From: a virus
DNA: 33,022 bases
Virus record (IMG/VR): IMGVR_UViG_3300030450_003412
Location: 1 to 33,022 of that record
Strand: one strand, 5' to 3'
Position numbers and translations under genes: made by a program. The first letter of the stretch is position 1. Each line of letters begins with the position of its first letter. Shown here piece after piece: positions 28 to 12,885 of this stretch. The notes below the pieces were generated by a model. It was not told where the DNA came from. It saw nothing but the letters and a program-made list of their open reading frames with translations, and searched no databases.

Positions 28-438
28 TCAGGCCTCTGGCCCTTTCCCCGTAATCACCACCCGAATCTCCCCATCCGGCCTGACGATCTCGTCTCGTTTC
101 AGGAATGGATGTGTCCGGAAGTGGCAGTCATCGATCTTCAGTGCGTCCGCCAGCCCATCACGGCCAGACTTGAAAGCTGCAATAATGTTGTCGTCGTCCC
201 GGGCCCGCCGATTGGGCGGATGGAAGTCCAGGAACACATGAATCTCACCGCCGGCCTCGACCAGCTCCCGCAGGGGCGTCAGATCCCACTTGCCCGCCTG
301 GATGGTCTCCAGCGAAATCATCTTGCAGGTGTACCGGTACACTTCCGCAGCGCGGGCTTTCTTGGCCCAGTGCCCTCTGGAGTTCGGGCTTAGGGCCTTG
401 TGCGGCCAGGGAAGTATGATTTCGAGTTTCTCTGGCAT
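28..438 (-). CDS. rusA: RusA-like Holliday junction resolvase
   Basis: A 136-residue protein of the RusA family, which cuts Holliday junctions symmetrically and resolves branched phage DNA during recombination or before packaging. The family signature is clear: an N-terminal PHKALSPN..HWAKKA stretch and the acidic metal-binding motif RRARDDDNIIAAFK (about residues 77-90), whose Asp residues and Lys correspond to the catalytic Asp/Asp/Lys of RusA. Length is close to the usual 120-140. The ATG at 438 follows a GGAG six bases upstream. The gene starts inside the 3' end of the upstream 66-aa gene (49-nt overlap), so translation is probably coupled. It is the last gene of the minus-strand early transcript; if the window ends join, the small terminase gene comes next. 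Confidence 0.88.
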   Translation of the reverse strand: MPEKLEIILPWPHKALSPNSRGHWAKKARAAEVYRYTCKMISLETIQAGKWDLTPLRELVEAGGEIHVFLDFHPPNRRARDDDNIIAAFKSGRDGLADALKIDDCHFRTHPFLKRDEIVRPDGEIRVVITGKGPEA

Positions 439-590
439 TGCCTGCTCCGTCTCCGTAATTCAAAAACTGTCTTAACGTGACATGTCACGTTTTCTCGTAG
501 TGACTCCGGGCATTCCGCCAGCCTGGCCTTTCTCTCTTCCCGACCGGCGCCGGCGGCAACGTATGCGTTCCACTCGCCGAGTGACTCCAT
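390..590 (-). CDS. Small conserved phage protein (66 aa)
   Basis: Sixty-six residues with a helical core, roughly W-N-A-Y-V then REERKARLAECPE, LRENV and HV-TVFELR. I recall small phage proteins of this pattern (ER..RLAE.PE.LR..V..HV..V..LR) in the nin-like region of lambdoid phages of Pseudomonas and relatives, but no function is known to me. The start at 590 is chosen because GAGGAG lies directly upstream; an open frame continues upstream only through the tRNA gene. The basic C-terminus (RRRSRQCQRN) lies in the overlap with rusA. The 18-bp palindrome at 474-491 is inside this gene. Confidence 0.6.
   Translation of the reverse strand: MESLGEWNAYVAAGAGREERKARLAECPESLRENVTCHVKTVFELRRRSRQCQRNSKSYFPGRTRP
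474..491. promoter_or_regulatory. 18-bp perfect palindrome, copy 1
   Basis: AACGTGACATGTCACGTT is a perfect 18-bp palindrome inside the 66-aa gene. Its 14-bp core CGTGACATGTCACG recurs exactly at 8407-8420. A symmetric site shared by two distant places in opposite operons suggests a binding site for a dimeric protein. The binder is unknown. Confidence 0.4.
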
Positions 591-610: not shown

Positions 611-687
611 TGGTAGCAGGCGAGGGAGTCGAACCCTCCGATATCCGGGTTATGAGCCCAGCGAGACACCGTTTCTCCATGCCTGCA
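611..687 (-). tRNA. tRNA-Met(CAT) with initiator-like features
   Basis: A 77-nt cloverleaf with encoded CCA (611-613). The acceptor TGCAGGC (687-681) pairs with GCCTGCT (621-615) except for a U-U mismatch at position 1-72. The D stem is GAGA/TCTC with A11-U24. The anticodon stem is CTGGG/CCCGG around CTCATAA (anticodon CAT). The T arm is GAGGG-TTCGACT-CCCTC. The mispaired 1-72, A11-U24 and three consecutive G-C pairs under the anticodon loop are the hallmarks of bacterial initiator tRNA. Three bases instead of two join acceptor and D stems, so the fold is slightly irregular. It lies directly 3' of the large structured RNA and was probably cut from the same transcript. Confidence 0.85.
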
Positions 688-689
688 TA

Positions 690-1425
690 GCTGGCGGGTT
701 ATCCGGTACCACCGCCGTATGCCTTTTGAAGGGAGGCTACCCAGACCCCCTACCGGTAGGAGCCACAAGTTCGCAATGTCATTGCGGTTGATGCGTCGGC
801 CGGGAACCTCCCAACCCCTTACACATCTGTGGAATGCCCTCGCTTGGCGGACCCGCTTTCAACGGCAAGGACACTCCCAGATGCGTCCCGGTTACCCTCG
901 TCCGGGGACACGTCAACCACCTACCAACGGTGATACTTTTGTGCCGGGTGCCCTGGGCACCATCCCCAGGGTGGAGCCGTGGCGCCGGTGGCTCGACGCA
1001 CGACGTTCTATGGCCCTACATTCCTGCCGCAGCTCACACGGGCAGTTCAGATTCCGCCGAAGCGGGCGGGCTCTCTCGGGCGGTATCCGTATCCGAGGAG
1101 GGCTCTACCTGACTCGCAGGCCTGGGGAGACCTACCAAGTCACCTTGGTCATGGGAGCAGAGCCCTCCCGGATACGGCCTGCCTTTCCAGGCTGTCAGCG
1201 CGATCAACTGGGGCGGTGGTGGGTTACCTTTGCCTCGCGCTGCTGGCGTTCTATCGCCGGGACCCTGTCCCCGGCTGCAATGTCGGCACCTTGGCTTTCG
1301 CCTGGCCAGCTTTACCGGCTGCTTCTGATAGCGCTGCAGCTCGCGCTCGCATCAAACCCTGTACAGATATCCACCCGTAGTCAGACGGGTATTCCGCCGG
1401 CTTGCGAGTGGTTTAATGGAAACCA
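690..1425 (-). ncRNA. Large ornate structured RNA (GOLLD/ROOL-like by context)
   Basis: About 740 bases without a credible gene but dense in helices. Verified stems (plus coordinates): 1373-1378/1385-1390; 1256-1263/1267-1275; 1087-1106/1159-1177 (19 bp, one bulge); 1134-1139/1144-1149; 1054-1057/1062-1065; 1024-1028/1041-1045; 974-978/990-994; 951-957/965-971; 885-891/902-909; 824-833/875-883; 772-777/781-786; 731-736/807-812; 693-697/712-716. Read on the minus strand, loops are GUGA (1140-1143), C(UUCG)G (1058-1061) and an alternative GGAA, all standard tetraloops; on the plus strand they are not, which fixes the strand. Known giant phage RNAs such as GOLLD are of similar size and often sit beside tRNAs. 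The exact ends and the family are not established. Confidence 0.75.
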
Positions 1426-1671
1426 TCAGGCGGCCTCTCCAGATCGTTCCGCCGGCAACCCGTCAGTAGGATTCGGGTAGATGTCCGGGCGGAGCTCGTG
1501 AGGAGTGACCTGCCAGTCAGACCCTTCACAAATGGACAGCGCTCGCTTCGGCGAAATGGGGCGGATCCCATGAACCATTTGGTAAAGGTATGCAGGGGCC
1601 ACACCGATATGCTTTGCGAAATCGGAGCGGCCGCCCGGAGGCAATTGATTTAGGAAAGTTGAGAGTTTCAT
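1426..1671 (-). CDS. Cro-like / YdaS-type HTH regulator (81 aa)
   Basis: A small DNA-binding protein, MKLSTFLNQLPPGGRSDFAKHIGV..., with a helix-turn-helix at about residues 13-35 (RSDFAKHIGVAPAYLYQMVHG) followed by ISPKRALSICEGSDW, the pattern of YdaS/Cro-type regulators. It is transcribed divergently from the repressor across the operator region, as cro is from cI in lambda, so it is presumably the lytic-phase repressor of the immunity promoter. The ATG at 1671 is preferred over an upstream in-frame start because the upstream one would place promoter and operators inside the gene. It is the first gene of the transcript that continues into the large RNA, tRNA and rusA. A small hairpin (1409-1414/1420-1425) abuts the stop codon. 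Confidence 0.8.
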   Translation of the reverse strand: MKLSTFLNQLPPGGRSDFAKHIGVAPAYLYQMVHGIRPISPKRALSICEGSDWQVTPHELRPDIYPNPTDGLPAERSGEAA

Positions 1672-1678
1672 GAACGGA

Positions 1679-1707
1679 AATGTAGCTTTTGCTATATCTA
1701 ACGTCAA
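1679..1707 (-). promoter_or_regulatory. PR-like promoter for the Cro-like gene
   Basis: On the minus strand TTGACG (1707-1702) is followed after 17 bp by TACATT (1684-1679), a good sigma-70 match just upstream of the cro-like gene. Operator 1 lies over the spacer and -10, in nearly the same place relative to the -35 as operator 5 in the promoter at 4037, so bound repressor should block it. Confidence 0.7.
1682..1695. promoter_or_regulatory. Repressor operator 1
   Basis: GTAGC-TTTT-GCTAT is one of five copies of the dyad ATAGC-N4-GCTAT in the window. It overlaps the -10 of the leftward promoter, the role of OR1 in lambda. Confidence 0.65.
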
Positions 1708-5520: not shown

Positions 5521-6144
5521 ATGGCCACCTGGAATGCGCAACGGGATGAATGGCTGCGATCGCTATACCCCGAGACCAATAACAGGACGATCGCCAAAGT
5601 GATGGGCTGCTCCTATAGCGCCATCAAGAATCGGGCGCAGACGTTGGGTCTGAAAAAGTCTCCGGAATATCTGCAGCGGGAGAAACCAGGCTGCTTTCGG
5701 TCAGGCCAGACCAGCTGGAACAAGGGCCTCAGCTATCAACCAGGTGGCCGCTGCCAAGAGAACCAGTTCAAGCCCGGGCAAAAACCGCAAACGACAGTGC
5801 CGGTTGGCACCGAGTCGGTCGACAAGGATGGCTATCTGAAGCGGAAGGTTCGTGATGATGCGCCTTCAGGAATGAGCCGGAAGAACTGGAAGTTTGTTCA
5901 CGTCCTGAAGTGGGAGGAGTACCACGGCCGTCCGGTACCGCCAAAGCACATTGTCCGATTGAGGGACGGTGATAAGCGGAACTTTTCCAGGGAGAACCTG
6001 GTGCTGGTGAGCATGGCTGAGAACGCGATCCTGAATAAGTTCTTCGCCATGGAGAACCCGCCAGAAGGGAGCTTCGATGTGCTCCACAACCTGGCCAAGA
6101 TCAAGTTGGCAGCGAACAAACGGAAACGGGAGCTGACATGTTGA
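5521..6144 (+). CDS. HNH-type protein with N-terminal HTH (207 aa)
   Basis: Residues about 5-47 form an HTH (NNRTIAKVMGCSYSAIKNRAQTLGL). Two short repeats, CFRSGQTSWNKG and QFKPGQKPQ, precede a core of GTESVDKDGYLKRKV, then WKFVHVLKWEEYHGRPVP, HIVRLRDGDKRNFSRENLVLV, typical of HNH proteins of the homing-endonuclease-like kind (H...W..HG..P..H...DGD..N...NL.L). Known relatives nick or cut DNA; the second motif differs from the common HHxDGN form, so activity is not certain. It overlaps the next gene by 7 nt and is embedded in the operon, so it may be a working phage gene rather than an intruder. Confidence 0.72.
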   Translation: MATWNAQRDEWLRSLYPETNNRTIAKVMGCSYSAIKNRAQTLGLKKSPEYLQREKPGCFRSGQTSWNKGLSYQPGGRCQENQFKPGQKPQTTVPVGTESVDKDGYLKRKVRDDAPSGMSRKNWKFVHVLKWEEYHGRPVPPKHIVRLRDGDKRNFSRENLVLVSMAENAILNKFFAMENPPEGSFDVLHNLAKIKLAANKRKRELTC

Positions 6145-6524
6145 TTGCAAGTTACGAGCAATGGCGCGAAGCGAAGAAGCAGGTCCTCGAGGAAGAAAAC
6201 CCGGAGATCGATTGCGAAGAATGCGGGGGCCTTGGGGAAATCTACGAGCGTTGTCACTGCTGCGGTGGCGAAAAAGAGGAGGAGTGCGACCTCTGTGATG
6301 GTCGCGGGACCATTCGCTATCTCGACTCCTCAAAGCCACGGCCGGGTAATGATCTGGTGGGTCAAAGAGTTTACTTCCAGGAAGTGATCGCAGATCTCAA
6401 GACCTGGTGCACCTACACCAAGCAGGACTTTCTCCAGGTGGCCGGCGGGTTCGTTAGCGAATTCAGAAAGCAACACGGAATCAGGGGGCGTCACGGAATC
6501 ACCAGGTATAAAGGGCGGGCCTAA
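6138..6524 (+). CDS. DnaJ-like zinc-binding protein (128 aa)
   Basis: Cys-rich segment at residues 26-57: CEECGGLGE, then CHCCGG and CDLCDGRGT, spaced like the CxxCxGxG repeats of the DnaJ central zinc domain. There is no J domain, so it is not a chaperone by itself. The remainder is a helical C-terminal part with a basic tail (RKQHGIRGRHGITRYKGRA) suited to nucleic acid binding. Small DnaJ-type zinc-finger proteins are common in phage early operons, role unknown. The gene overlaps its neighbours at both ends (7 nt, then 1 nt). Confidence 0.65.
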   Translation: MLIASYEQWREAKKQVLEEENPEIDCEECGGLGEIYERCHCCGGEKEEECDLCDGRGTIRYLDSSKPRPGNDLVGQRVYFQEVIADLKTWCTYTKQDFLQVAGGFVSEFRKQHGIRGRHGITRYKGRA

Positions 6525-6784
6525 TGGACGGAAATACAGCCAGAACCATCCTCAGTCTGAACGATCAGCGGGACAAGGCAGAGGCCAGCAAGCGGGAAGC
6601 GCTCCTGCAGCTGGCCGAAATGAAGCACGAGCTCCAGATTCTCAGGCACATGAAGCGGGAGATCTTGGTCTGCCTGCTCGATCGACGGCTGCCCCATTAC
6701 CAGCGTGACGGATCATCACCCAGCTGCCACCACACAGTCAGCCGAATAGCGAGGATTGTACGCAGTGCACACGCAGGTAACTGA
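6524..6784 (+). CDS. Hypothetical coiled-coil protein (86 aa)
   Basis: The N-terminal 55 residues are one long helix (NDQRDKAEASKREALLQLAEMKHELQILRHMKREIL), a likely coiled coil; the tail has scattered Cys and His. The ATG overlaps the previous stop (TAATG). The 3' end overlaps the next gene. Function unknown. Confidence 0.5.
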   Translation: MDGNTARTILSLNDQRDKAEASKREALLQLAEMKHELQILRHMKREILVCLLDRRLPHYQRDGSSPSCHHTVSRIARIVRSAHAGN

Positions 6785-6956: not shown

Positions 6957-7177
6957 CACAAGAGCAACGCGATGAGGCGGTCAAGCTCCTGGGCACGTCC
7001 GCAGACGACTGTGAGCAGAACATCATGCGCAGTGTCGAGATCAACCCGTATTCGGGACTGATGACCGTGGCCAGCACTCTGGTACATGCCAACCAGACAA
7101 ATCGGCTGAACAAGTCTCACCGCCAGGCGTTGATGAAGGCCGGCAGGAAAGCTTTAAAGGATCTGGGAGATATTTGA
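6950..7177 (+). CDS. Hypothetical protein (75 aa)
   Basis: Helical protein MLTQEQRDEAVKLLGTSADD... ending HRQALMKAGRKALKDLGDI. The ATG at 6950 lies inside the end of the previous gene, preceded by GAGAGGGAAGC. Its stop overlaps the start of the Gp37/Gp68 gene (TGATG). Function unknown. Confidence 0.55.
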   Translation: MLTQEQRDEAVKLLGTSADDCEQNIMRSVEINPYSGLMTVASTLVHANQTNRLNKSHRQALMKAGRKALKDLGDI

Positions 7178-8226
7178 TGGGACAGAAAACTGGAATTGAG
7201 TGGACCGAATCCACCTGGAACCCGATACGTGGCTGCTCCCGTGTCAGCGAAGGCTGTCGGAACTGCTATGCGGAAACCGTTGCCAATCGATTCAAGGGCC
7301 CCGGTGAACCCTATGAGGGTCTGATCGCCAAGGGCGACCAGTGGAATGGCGAGGTGAAAATGATCGAGCACAAGCTGGATGAGCCCTGCCGGTGGAGCAA
7401 GCCGCGGATGATCTTCGTGAACAGCATGAGTGACCTGTTTCATCCCTCAGTTCCGTTTGAAACCATTGCGGCCGTTTTCGGAATCATGGCCGCCGCCTCG
7501 TGGCATACCTTCCAGGTGCTCACCAAACGCCCGGAACGTGCTTCTCAATTCTTCTCCTGGTTGGAGGCTCACCCGGAGCGGTCCAACTTCGATACACAGA
7601 AGCTTCAAAGCACCTACCCGGGCGCAGCGTGGCAGCCGTTCCTATTGGCTCAAGCTGCGGCCGACATTTTACCAAGTGAGGGTGCTGGCCTGAGAGTCGA
7701 TCTAAAAGGCAAATGGCCTCTCCCCAATCTCTGGCTTGGCGTTAGCGTGGAGGATCAGGAAACCGCAGACGAGCGCGTTCCTTTGTTGCTGAATGCCCCA
7801 GCTGCTGTTAGGTGGATCTCTGCAGAGCCGTTGCTTGGCGCGGTCGATCTCACACGGATCAATGGTTGTCCTACTGACGATCGATATATGGATAGCGGTT
7901 GTGTCGATGCCCTCCGCTGCACGCACCCGTCGAGAGTTGATTGGGTAGTTGTTGGAGGCGAGTCCGGTCCAGGGGCCAGGCCAATGCACCCTGAATGGGC
8001 TCGCGGCCTTCGCGATCAGTGCAAATTGGCGGGTGTGCCATTCCTTTTTAAGCAGTGGGGCGAGTTTGCCCCCTCTCCTGACGGTGGCTTGCCCGATGAT
8101 CTGCCAGAGTCGGCCGGTCATTACTTTGATGAGCCACACCCTCCAGGAAAGACCTGGCGATTTGGAAAGAAGCGTTCCGGGAGACTTCTGGATGGCCGCA
8201 AATGGGATGAGTATCCGGAGGGTTGA
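7177..8226 (+). CDS. Phage Gp37/Gp68 family protein (DUF5131), 349 aa
   Basis: Typical family start GIEWTESTWNPIRGC with a Cys triplet C20-x6-C27-x2-C30 (GCSRVSEGCRNCYAE), then FVNSMSDLFH, VLTKRPERA, WLGVSVEDQETADERVPLL, RWISAEPLLG, DWVVVGGESGPGARPM and FLFKQWGEF, all in the expected order. The family resembles radical-SAM proteins, but the biochemical role in phages is not settled; nucleic acid or protein modification has been proposed. The length is somewhat larger than the common 250-300 because of an insertion around residues 120-180 (HPERSNFDTQKLQ...EGAGLRVDLKGK). It is the largest early gene. The ATG at 7177 overlaps the preceding stop. Confidence 0.9.
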   Translation: MGQKTGIEWTESTWNPIRGCSRVSEGCRNCYAETVANRFKGPGEPYEGLIAKGDQWNGEVKMIEHKLDEPCRWSKPRMIFVNSMSDLFHPSVPFETIAAVFGIMAAASWHTFQVLTKRPERASQFFSWLEAHPERSNFDTQKLQSTYPGAAWQPFLLAQAAADILPSEGAGLRVDLKGKWPLPNLWLGVSVEDQETADERVPLLLNAPAAVRWISAEPLLGAVDLTRINGCPTDDRYMDSGCVDALRCTHPSRVDWVVVGGESGPGARPMHPEWARGLRDQCKLAGVPFLFKQWGEFAPSPDGGLPDDLPESAGHYFDEPHPPGKTWRFGKKRSGRLLDGRKWDEYPEG

Positions 8227-12526: not shown

Positions 12527-12885
12527 ACAAATCACCCAACCGCGAAAGTGAGGAGGAAGTCTTTCTGATATATAACGCTAGCCCAATGCAATAGCATTGT
12601 CTGTAAGATATATCTCACAAAGCAATGGGCCTTTTGGCCAGCCCATAGGATGTTTTTCTGCGCAGTGGCATCAGAGAGAAAGCTGAAAACTGCTCGGCTT
12701 GGGGCAGGCGACCCCAGCATTATGAGTGCTACCAGCAAACGTAACCGGTTGATTTTATTGTAGCCGAAAGCATTGCCCTCGCCCACATTTGTCTATTTGC
12801 GCGCATCCGTGGCTATGGTGTGGCCGCAAAATGCCCACAGTCACCTCGCCAGCCTTTGCAGAAGTGGATCTTCAAGGTTTTCTCC

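Follow-up and report, generated by a model that had tools for sequence, protein, structure and literature searches.

The 33,022-base stretch of DNA analysed here (hereafter the window) belongs to a temperate siphovirus with genes for an integrase, terminase, portal, major head protein, head protease, tape measure, and tail proteins. It contains one tRNA gene in total, a tRNA-Met(CAU) gene that, by the contrast between sequence profiles, is of the initiator type but divergent. On balance, this gene probably provides an intact, early-expressed phage initiator tRNA, which would add to or replace that of the host.

611–687, minus strand: initiator-type tRNA-Met(CAU) gene with encoded CCA (ARAGORN, Rfam, position-wise reading, and profile scores).

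The tRNA gene at 611–687 is real. ARAGORN called it as tRNA-Met(CAU) on the minus strand, and the RF00005 match over the same positions (39.1 bits, E 5.3e-5) was the sole gathering-level Rfam hit of the window. The initial annotation had described an initiator-like tRNA-Met, and this description is borne out by the initiator profile, which scored best, and by the marks it had named, all of which are present: (i) positions 1 and 72 are U1/U72, neither a Watson–Crick nor a G-U pair, as in all 7 carriers of the family (described below); (ii) the 11-24 pair is A11-U24, i.e., purine 11–pyrimidine 24; and (iii) the anticodon loop is closed by the three G-C pairs of G29-G30-G31/C39-C40-C41 (29-41, 30-40, and 31-39). 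The anticodon stem CUGGG/CCCGG is found in the window and 5 other carriers, and is broken at 30-40 in the carrier L091. The tRNA also has the CAU anticodon, A73, and an encoded CCA, and its anticodon loop, CUCAUAA, is the same as that of cellular initiators. The paired 1-72 and Y11-R24, which are marks of elongator Met and Ile2 tRNAs, are absent.

One additional base is located ahead of the D stem, which begins at nucleotide 11, and the 8-9 region has three nucleotides compared with the usual two. The variable loop has 6 nucleotides, one above the usual five, the D loop has 7 nucleotides, and the pair 28-42 is U-G. Two nucleotides at 8-9 and a five-nucleotide variable loop are common geometry and do not define the function of initiators. 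The acceptor-stem determinants for MTF are G2-C71, C3-G70, and G4-C69; the window tRNA has G2-C71 and C3-G70, with A4-U69 instead of G4-C69 at the third position. The extra base at 8-9, the 6-nucleotide variable loop, the 7-nucleotide D loop, and A4-U69 could impair function.

Sequence profiles were derived from distinct cellular tRNAs (21 initiators, 13 elongator Met tRNAs, and 21 Ile2 tRNAs). Scoring as elongator Met or Ile2, the outcome that had been named as speaking against an initiator, was checked directly: the window tRNA scored 3.5 bits with the elongator Met profile and had no hit with the Ile2 profile, compared with 32.9 bits with the initiator profile. The left-out cellular controls each scored best with the profile of their own class, with leave-one-out minima of 68.0 (initiator), 60.9 (Met), and 67.2 (Ile2) bits. 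The 32.9 bits of the window tRNA are far under the cellular initiator minimum of 68, and the top cross-score, 36.3, was that of a cellular Ile2 tRNA on the initiator profile. Because some cellular Ile2 tRNAs reach 36.3 on this profile, the absolute score is not decisive, and it is the contrast between profiles that counts.

Comparison with cellular tRNA-fMet (E. coli metZWV and metY, and genomes of the class of G001) revealed that CAU, A73, CCA, and A11-U24 are common to both, as are the unpaired 1-72, the GGG/CCC stem, and the anticodon loop, with U1/U72 in many of the cellular genes. The annotated initiator genes of E. coli share A11-U24 and GGG/CCC with the window tRNA but have C1/A72. The U1-U72 mismatch had been thought odd in the initial annotation, which is not borne out: among 274 genomes sampled from the class of G001, 177 had the initiator pattern with U72 and 18 had the same pattern with A72. 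We take this class to be Gammaproteobacteria, because G001 is a Legionellales MAG and because of YchF matches. When the conserved block was compared with 369 genomes by BLAST, the matches to its tRNA part were cellular initiators; 28 of the 29 loci examined, a set biased to look-alikes of the window tRNA, held a tRNA-Met, all with GGG/CCC (24 with U1/U72, 3 with A1-U72, and 1 with C1/A72). U1/U72 is a natural initiator form and a normal cellular variant.

By contrast, the window tRNA differs from cellular tRNA-fMet in the extra nucleotide before the D stem, the 6-nucleotide variable loop, U28-G42, the acceptor and T stems, and its low profile score. The D stem begins at nucleotide 10 in the cellular tRNAs compared but at 11 in all 7 family carriers. 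The extra base had also been called odd, which stands against cellular initiators but not among phages, where it recurs: the D stem likewise starts at 11 in the tRNA-Met of Mooglevirus Sf14, Felixounavirus Pr103Blw, and Vibrio phage D419, in which an extra base precedes a GAGA/UCUC D stem, with A11-U24 as in the window and a similar D loop. The tRNAs of Sf14 and Pr103Blw, unlike that of the window, have no GGG/CCC stem, have U73, and score only 9.7–11.2 as initiators; according to PMC12482277, Sf14 has no tRNA-fMet. The extra base suggests that the gene has descended within phages and was not newly captured from a host.

Initiator marks recur among the tRNAs of other viruses. An anticodon-arm pattern matched 87 stretches of viral contigs, and loci L002–L092 yielded 89 CAU tRNAs, of which 4 were unparsed and 85 parsed, 9 of the latter being dropped for poor acceptor pairing. 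The other 76 have at least 5 pairs at acceptor positions 2–7, and 70 of them have GGG/CCC; the search pattern itself selects this stem, so that only the remaining marks count as independent, namely the lack of a 1-72 pair in 57 of the 70 and purine 11–pyrimidine 24 in 56. When 74 distinct viral sequences were scored, the initiator profile was the best for 68 with GGG/CCC, and the elongator profile was the best for none that had this stem. Outside the family, exactly one tRNA was present in 31 of 41 viral records that carry such an initiator-like tRNA, compared with 8 of 50 for a tRNA-Asn control (Fisher p 1e-8), in a non-random sample that includes fragments and near-duplicate contigs and in which the sole tRNA found is presumed to be the initiator-like one. 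The initiator-like set comprised 50 of 91 loci (9 of the family and 41 others), and the control, tRNA-Asn being one possible choice, comprised the first 50 of 80 listed loci. With records of at least 30 kb, the corresponding fractions in this sample were 17/26 and 2/23 (p 8e-5). No shared genomic position was found for the initiator-like tRNAs in other phages, the flanks of which are mixed (holin, helicase, primase, HNH, ParB-like, and capsid genes).

Pseudomonas phage D3 (AF165214) is, like the window, temperate and has a full tRNA-Met gene with GGG/CCC, A11-U24, and an unpaired 1-72 (C1/U72), which adjoins the early-region NinG gene. Unlike the window, D3 has the usual spacing before the D stem and Gly, Asn, and Thr tRNA genes that follow; its tRNA-Met (L159) bears the initiator marks, but C33 replaces the near-universal U33. 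The record of Stenotrophomonas phage QDWS359, a different phage, has an annotated tRNA-fMet, a phage-borne CAU tRNA as in the window. In Mesorhizobium phage vB_MseS-P1 (L167), a tRNA-Met with R11-Y24 and A1/A72 is located just past a LexA/Cro-like pair, a position of the same kind as that in the window; it is unannotated and falls within a gene labelled as a transcriptional repressor.

Because phage tRNA-fMet has been published before, the window gene is an additional member. The tRNA is reported in phiLM21-like Sinorhizobium prophages, where it is the sole tRNA gene in most of the tRNA-bearing ones (PMC12429752), in prophage NV1.1.1 (PMC10460002), and in Erwinia jumbo phages (PMC7760394). The CAU tRNA of the phiLM21-like prophages, annotated as an initiator, is phage-borne like that of the window, a comparison made by description only (PMC12429752). 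A search of open-licence papers found none on initiator tRNA as a tRNA that phages recurrently carry alone.

The initial annotation had also raised the replacement of a cut host initiator. It is conceivable, though rather unlikely, that the phage copy replaces a host initiator destroyed by an anticodon nuclease, escapes cleavage, and sustains translation. VapC is known to cleave initiator tRNA, a point established in work cited in PMC10264068, and a lone initiator gene suits such a targeted threat better than it suits codon supply. The same paper proposes that phage tRNAs resist anticodon nucleases by changes in the anticodon loop (PMC10264068), but the loop of the window tRNA carries no mutation of this type, being identical to that of cellular initiators in general, which are the comparison here rather than the initiator of the actual host. 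On this reading of the sequence, the unchanged loop speaks against the known loop-based evasion and not against other routes. In addition, phages of Shigella, a VapC host, are described there as generally avoiding tRNA-fMet genes (PMC10264068).

The tRNA is carried by 7 phage contigs, namely the window, L039, L052, L057, L061, L066, and L091. All 77 nucleotides are identical in 5 of the 7 (the window, L039, L052, L057, and L061), and L066 and L091 have one base change each, which breaks a stem at 5-68 and 30-40, respectively. Because 2 of the 7 carriers have stem-breaking changes, the constraint on the tRNA is not absolute. In L039, the tRNA matches at 77/77 positions compared with 121/140 in the 5′ flank and 133/150 in the 3′ flank; L061 and L052 have a near-identical 5′ flank as well (149/150), so the contrast there comes from the 3′ flank only. 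A search with one genome per species gave L094 as its sole match, with the same tRNA present; L094 and L039 gave identical BLAST figures and appear to be one phage, so L094 was left out of the carrier count. Presence among relatives is patchy, as three relatives with the same neighbouring RNA and one distant relative have no tRNA. Such patchiness, the stem mismatches in L091 and L066, and the mosaic surroundings would fit passive cargo, that is, a tRNA module swapped among phages and marginally useful or decaying. This explanation is unlikely; it is opposed by the full identity in 5 of the 7 carriers, which in L039 contrasts with flanks that have clearly diverged, by the encoded CCA, and by the wide recurrence of initiator marks among viral tRNAs.

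The tRNA lies among the following features of the window.

28–438, minus strand: RusA-like Holliday junction resolvase (PHROG 34, 1.8e-16).

390–590, minus strand: small ORF after the tRNA with a possible ribosome-binding site, GAGGAG (from the sequence; in the frame of ORF 390–680).

765–1428, minus strand: conserved non-coding RNA block, probably structured, located between the Cro stop codon and the tRNA (alignment and consensus folding).

1426–1671, minus strand: Cro-like/YdaS-family regulator (PHROG 35 repressor, 2.4e-22; Pfam YdaS_toxin, 2.4e-10).

1679–1707, minus strand: sigma-70-like promoter match, a candidate early promoter, 5′ of the Cro-like gene (9/12 matches).

The order on the minus strand is thus the Cro-like (YdaS-family) gene, the non-coding block, the tRNA, the small ORF, and the RusA-like gene. 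The Cro-like ORF had been listed as 1426–1707 with a TTG start; as read from the sequence, the ATG at 1671 fits better. The promoter match is weak (1 found versus 0.6 expected by chance), and a search of the interval from the candidate promoter to the tRNA found no terminator-like site. It is plausible that one early transcript runs from the Cro-like gene through the RNA block to the tRNA. A HipA-like kinase gene (2163–2912, Pfam HipA_2) adjoins the repressor gene and is also annotated on a Marinobacter plasmid (described below), and a DUF5131 protein (PHROG 2045) is encoded at 7174–8226.

The non-coding block looks like a real RNA. Its alignment has indels of 1, 2, and 4 nucleotides, its consensus folding energy gave an alifold z of -4.5 versus column shuffles, and 5 of 123 pairs covary on both sides, against 17 pair-breaking cells. 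A protein-coding reading of 719–1480 on the plus strand was rejected, with no Pfam hit and with these same indels. No Rfam family, GOLLD and ROOL included, was above the cut-off for the block, its sub-threshold hits (plastid, HIV, and FIV elements, pRNA, and mir-642) were taken as chance, and no match to it was found in the phage collection. GOLLD and ROOL are long structured phage RNAs found near tRNA genes; the window shares with them a long structured phage RNA adjoining a tRNA, and differs in having no match to an Rfam model above its cut-off. The block belongs to a conserved family of long RNAs located behind Cro in temperate phages, with an optional inner domain of ~267 nucleotides (about 833–1088) that is missing from some relatives. 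In L089, the RNA block is interrupted by ORFs.

In the window, L039, L052, L061, and L066, only a short spacer separates this RNA from the tRNA that directly follows it. The initial annotation had suggested that the tRNA might serve as a structural or processing partner of the giant RNA; RNase P could then, for example, set the 3′ end. This now seems very improbable: the RNA is present with no tRNA in L089, L090, and L092 and, in a distant copy that was identified by eye, on the plasmid of Marinobacter sp. M3C (L093, about 6050–6560); the tRNA of L091 is >500 nucleotides from the RNA block, behind two reading frames; and a partnership would leave the initiator marks unexplained. A fixed tRNA–RNA partnership is unlikely because relatives keep the RNA without the tRNA. 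The gene is separable from the RNA, and it is also separable from the attachment site.

12709–12730, minus strand: attP core (22/22 match to the anticodon-arm part of the elongator tRNA-Met of L092).

L092 starts with a host gene, which we take to be ychF, followed by the elongator tRNA-Met and the integrase. Records G377 and G378 each contain two copies of an 18-nucleotide part of the core, one near each end, and the window has a single, internal copy of the core. The window record looks like an excised or virion genome, and its ends, just past RusA and just before the small terminase subunit, would fit a genome cut at a cos-type site. Since the attP core comes from an elongator tRNA-Met, the phage family integrates there, and the gene at 611–687 is separate. 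Although tRNA genes often serve phage integration, the idea that the gene is a leftover of integration into the initiator tRNA gene of a host is refuted by this mapping of the core and of its copies in G377 and G378, and by the gene itself, which is complete, outside attP, and separated from the integrase by 9 kb. The host is more likely to be Marinobacter-like than a member of Legionellales because the plasmid of Marinobacter sp. M3C bears a syntenic block and the distant RNA copy. The Legionellales host, derived from L094, was rejected on GC content (57% in the contig versus 35.6% in sampled contigs of that MAG). L094 (PAMH01000059.1) is a phage contig of a Legionellales MAG and, given the GC gap, is probably misbinned.

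As an early-expressed phage initiator, the tRNA would probably be transcribed from the early promoter together with the Cro-like gene and the long non-coding RNA, and would be released by host RNase P and 3′ processing. Host MetRS would charge it through CAU and A73, host MTF would formylate it through the unpaired 1-72, G2-C71, C3-G70, and A11-U24, and IF2 would deliver it to the ribosomal P site by virtue of the three G-C pairs. The likely benefit would be that initiation capacity is kept or raised at times when the host initiator is limiting or damaged, be it early in infection or following induction.

Phage tRNAs are usually explained by codon supply or by the replacement of elongator tRNAs that have been cut. 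An initiator tRNA carried alone is of no use for internal codons, and translation initiation itself would thus be the point of conflict or control. The lone-tRNA pattern, seen in 31 of the 41 sampled records, makes the question accessible to tests on one small gene in common temperate phages like D3. We put forward, as a tentative possibility, that selection has repeatedly favoured initiator tRNA as a lone translation gene in small phages: a single early-expressed phage initiator would shift or protect initiation during takeover, and the class would be hidden under the label "tRNA-Met". If this were true, the window gene would be one such case with a phage-specific body (the extra nucleotide before the D stem and the long variable loop).
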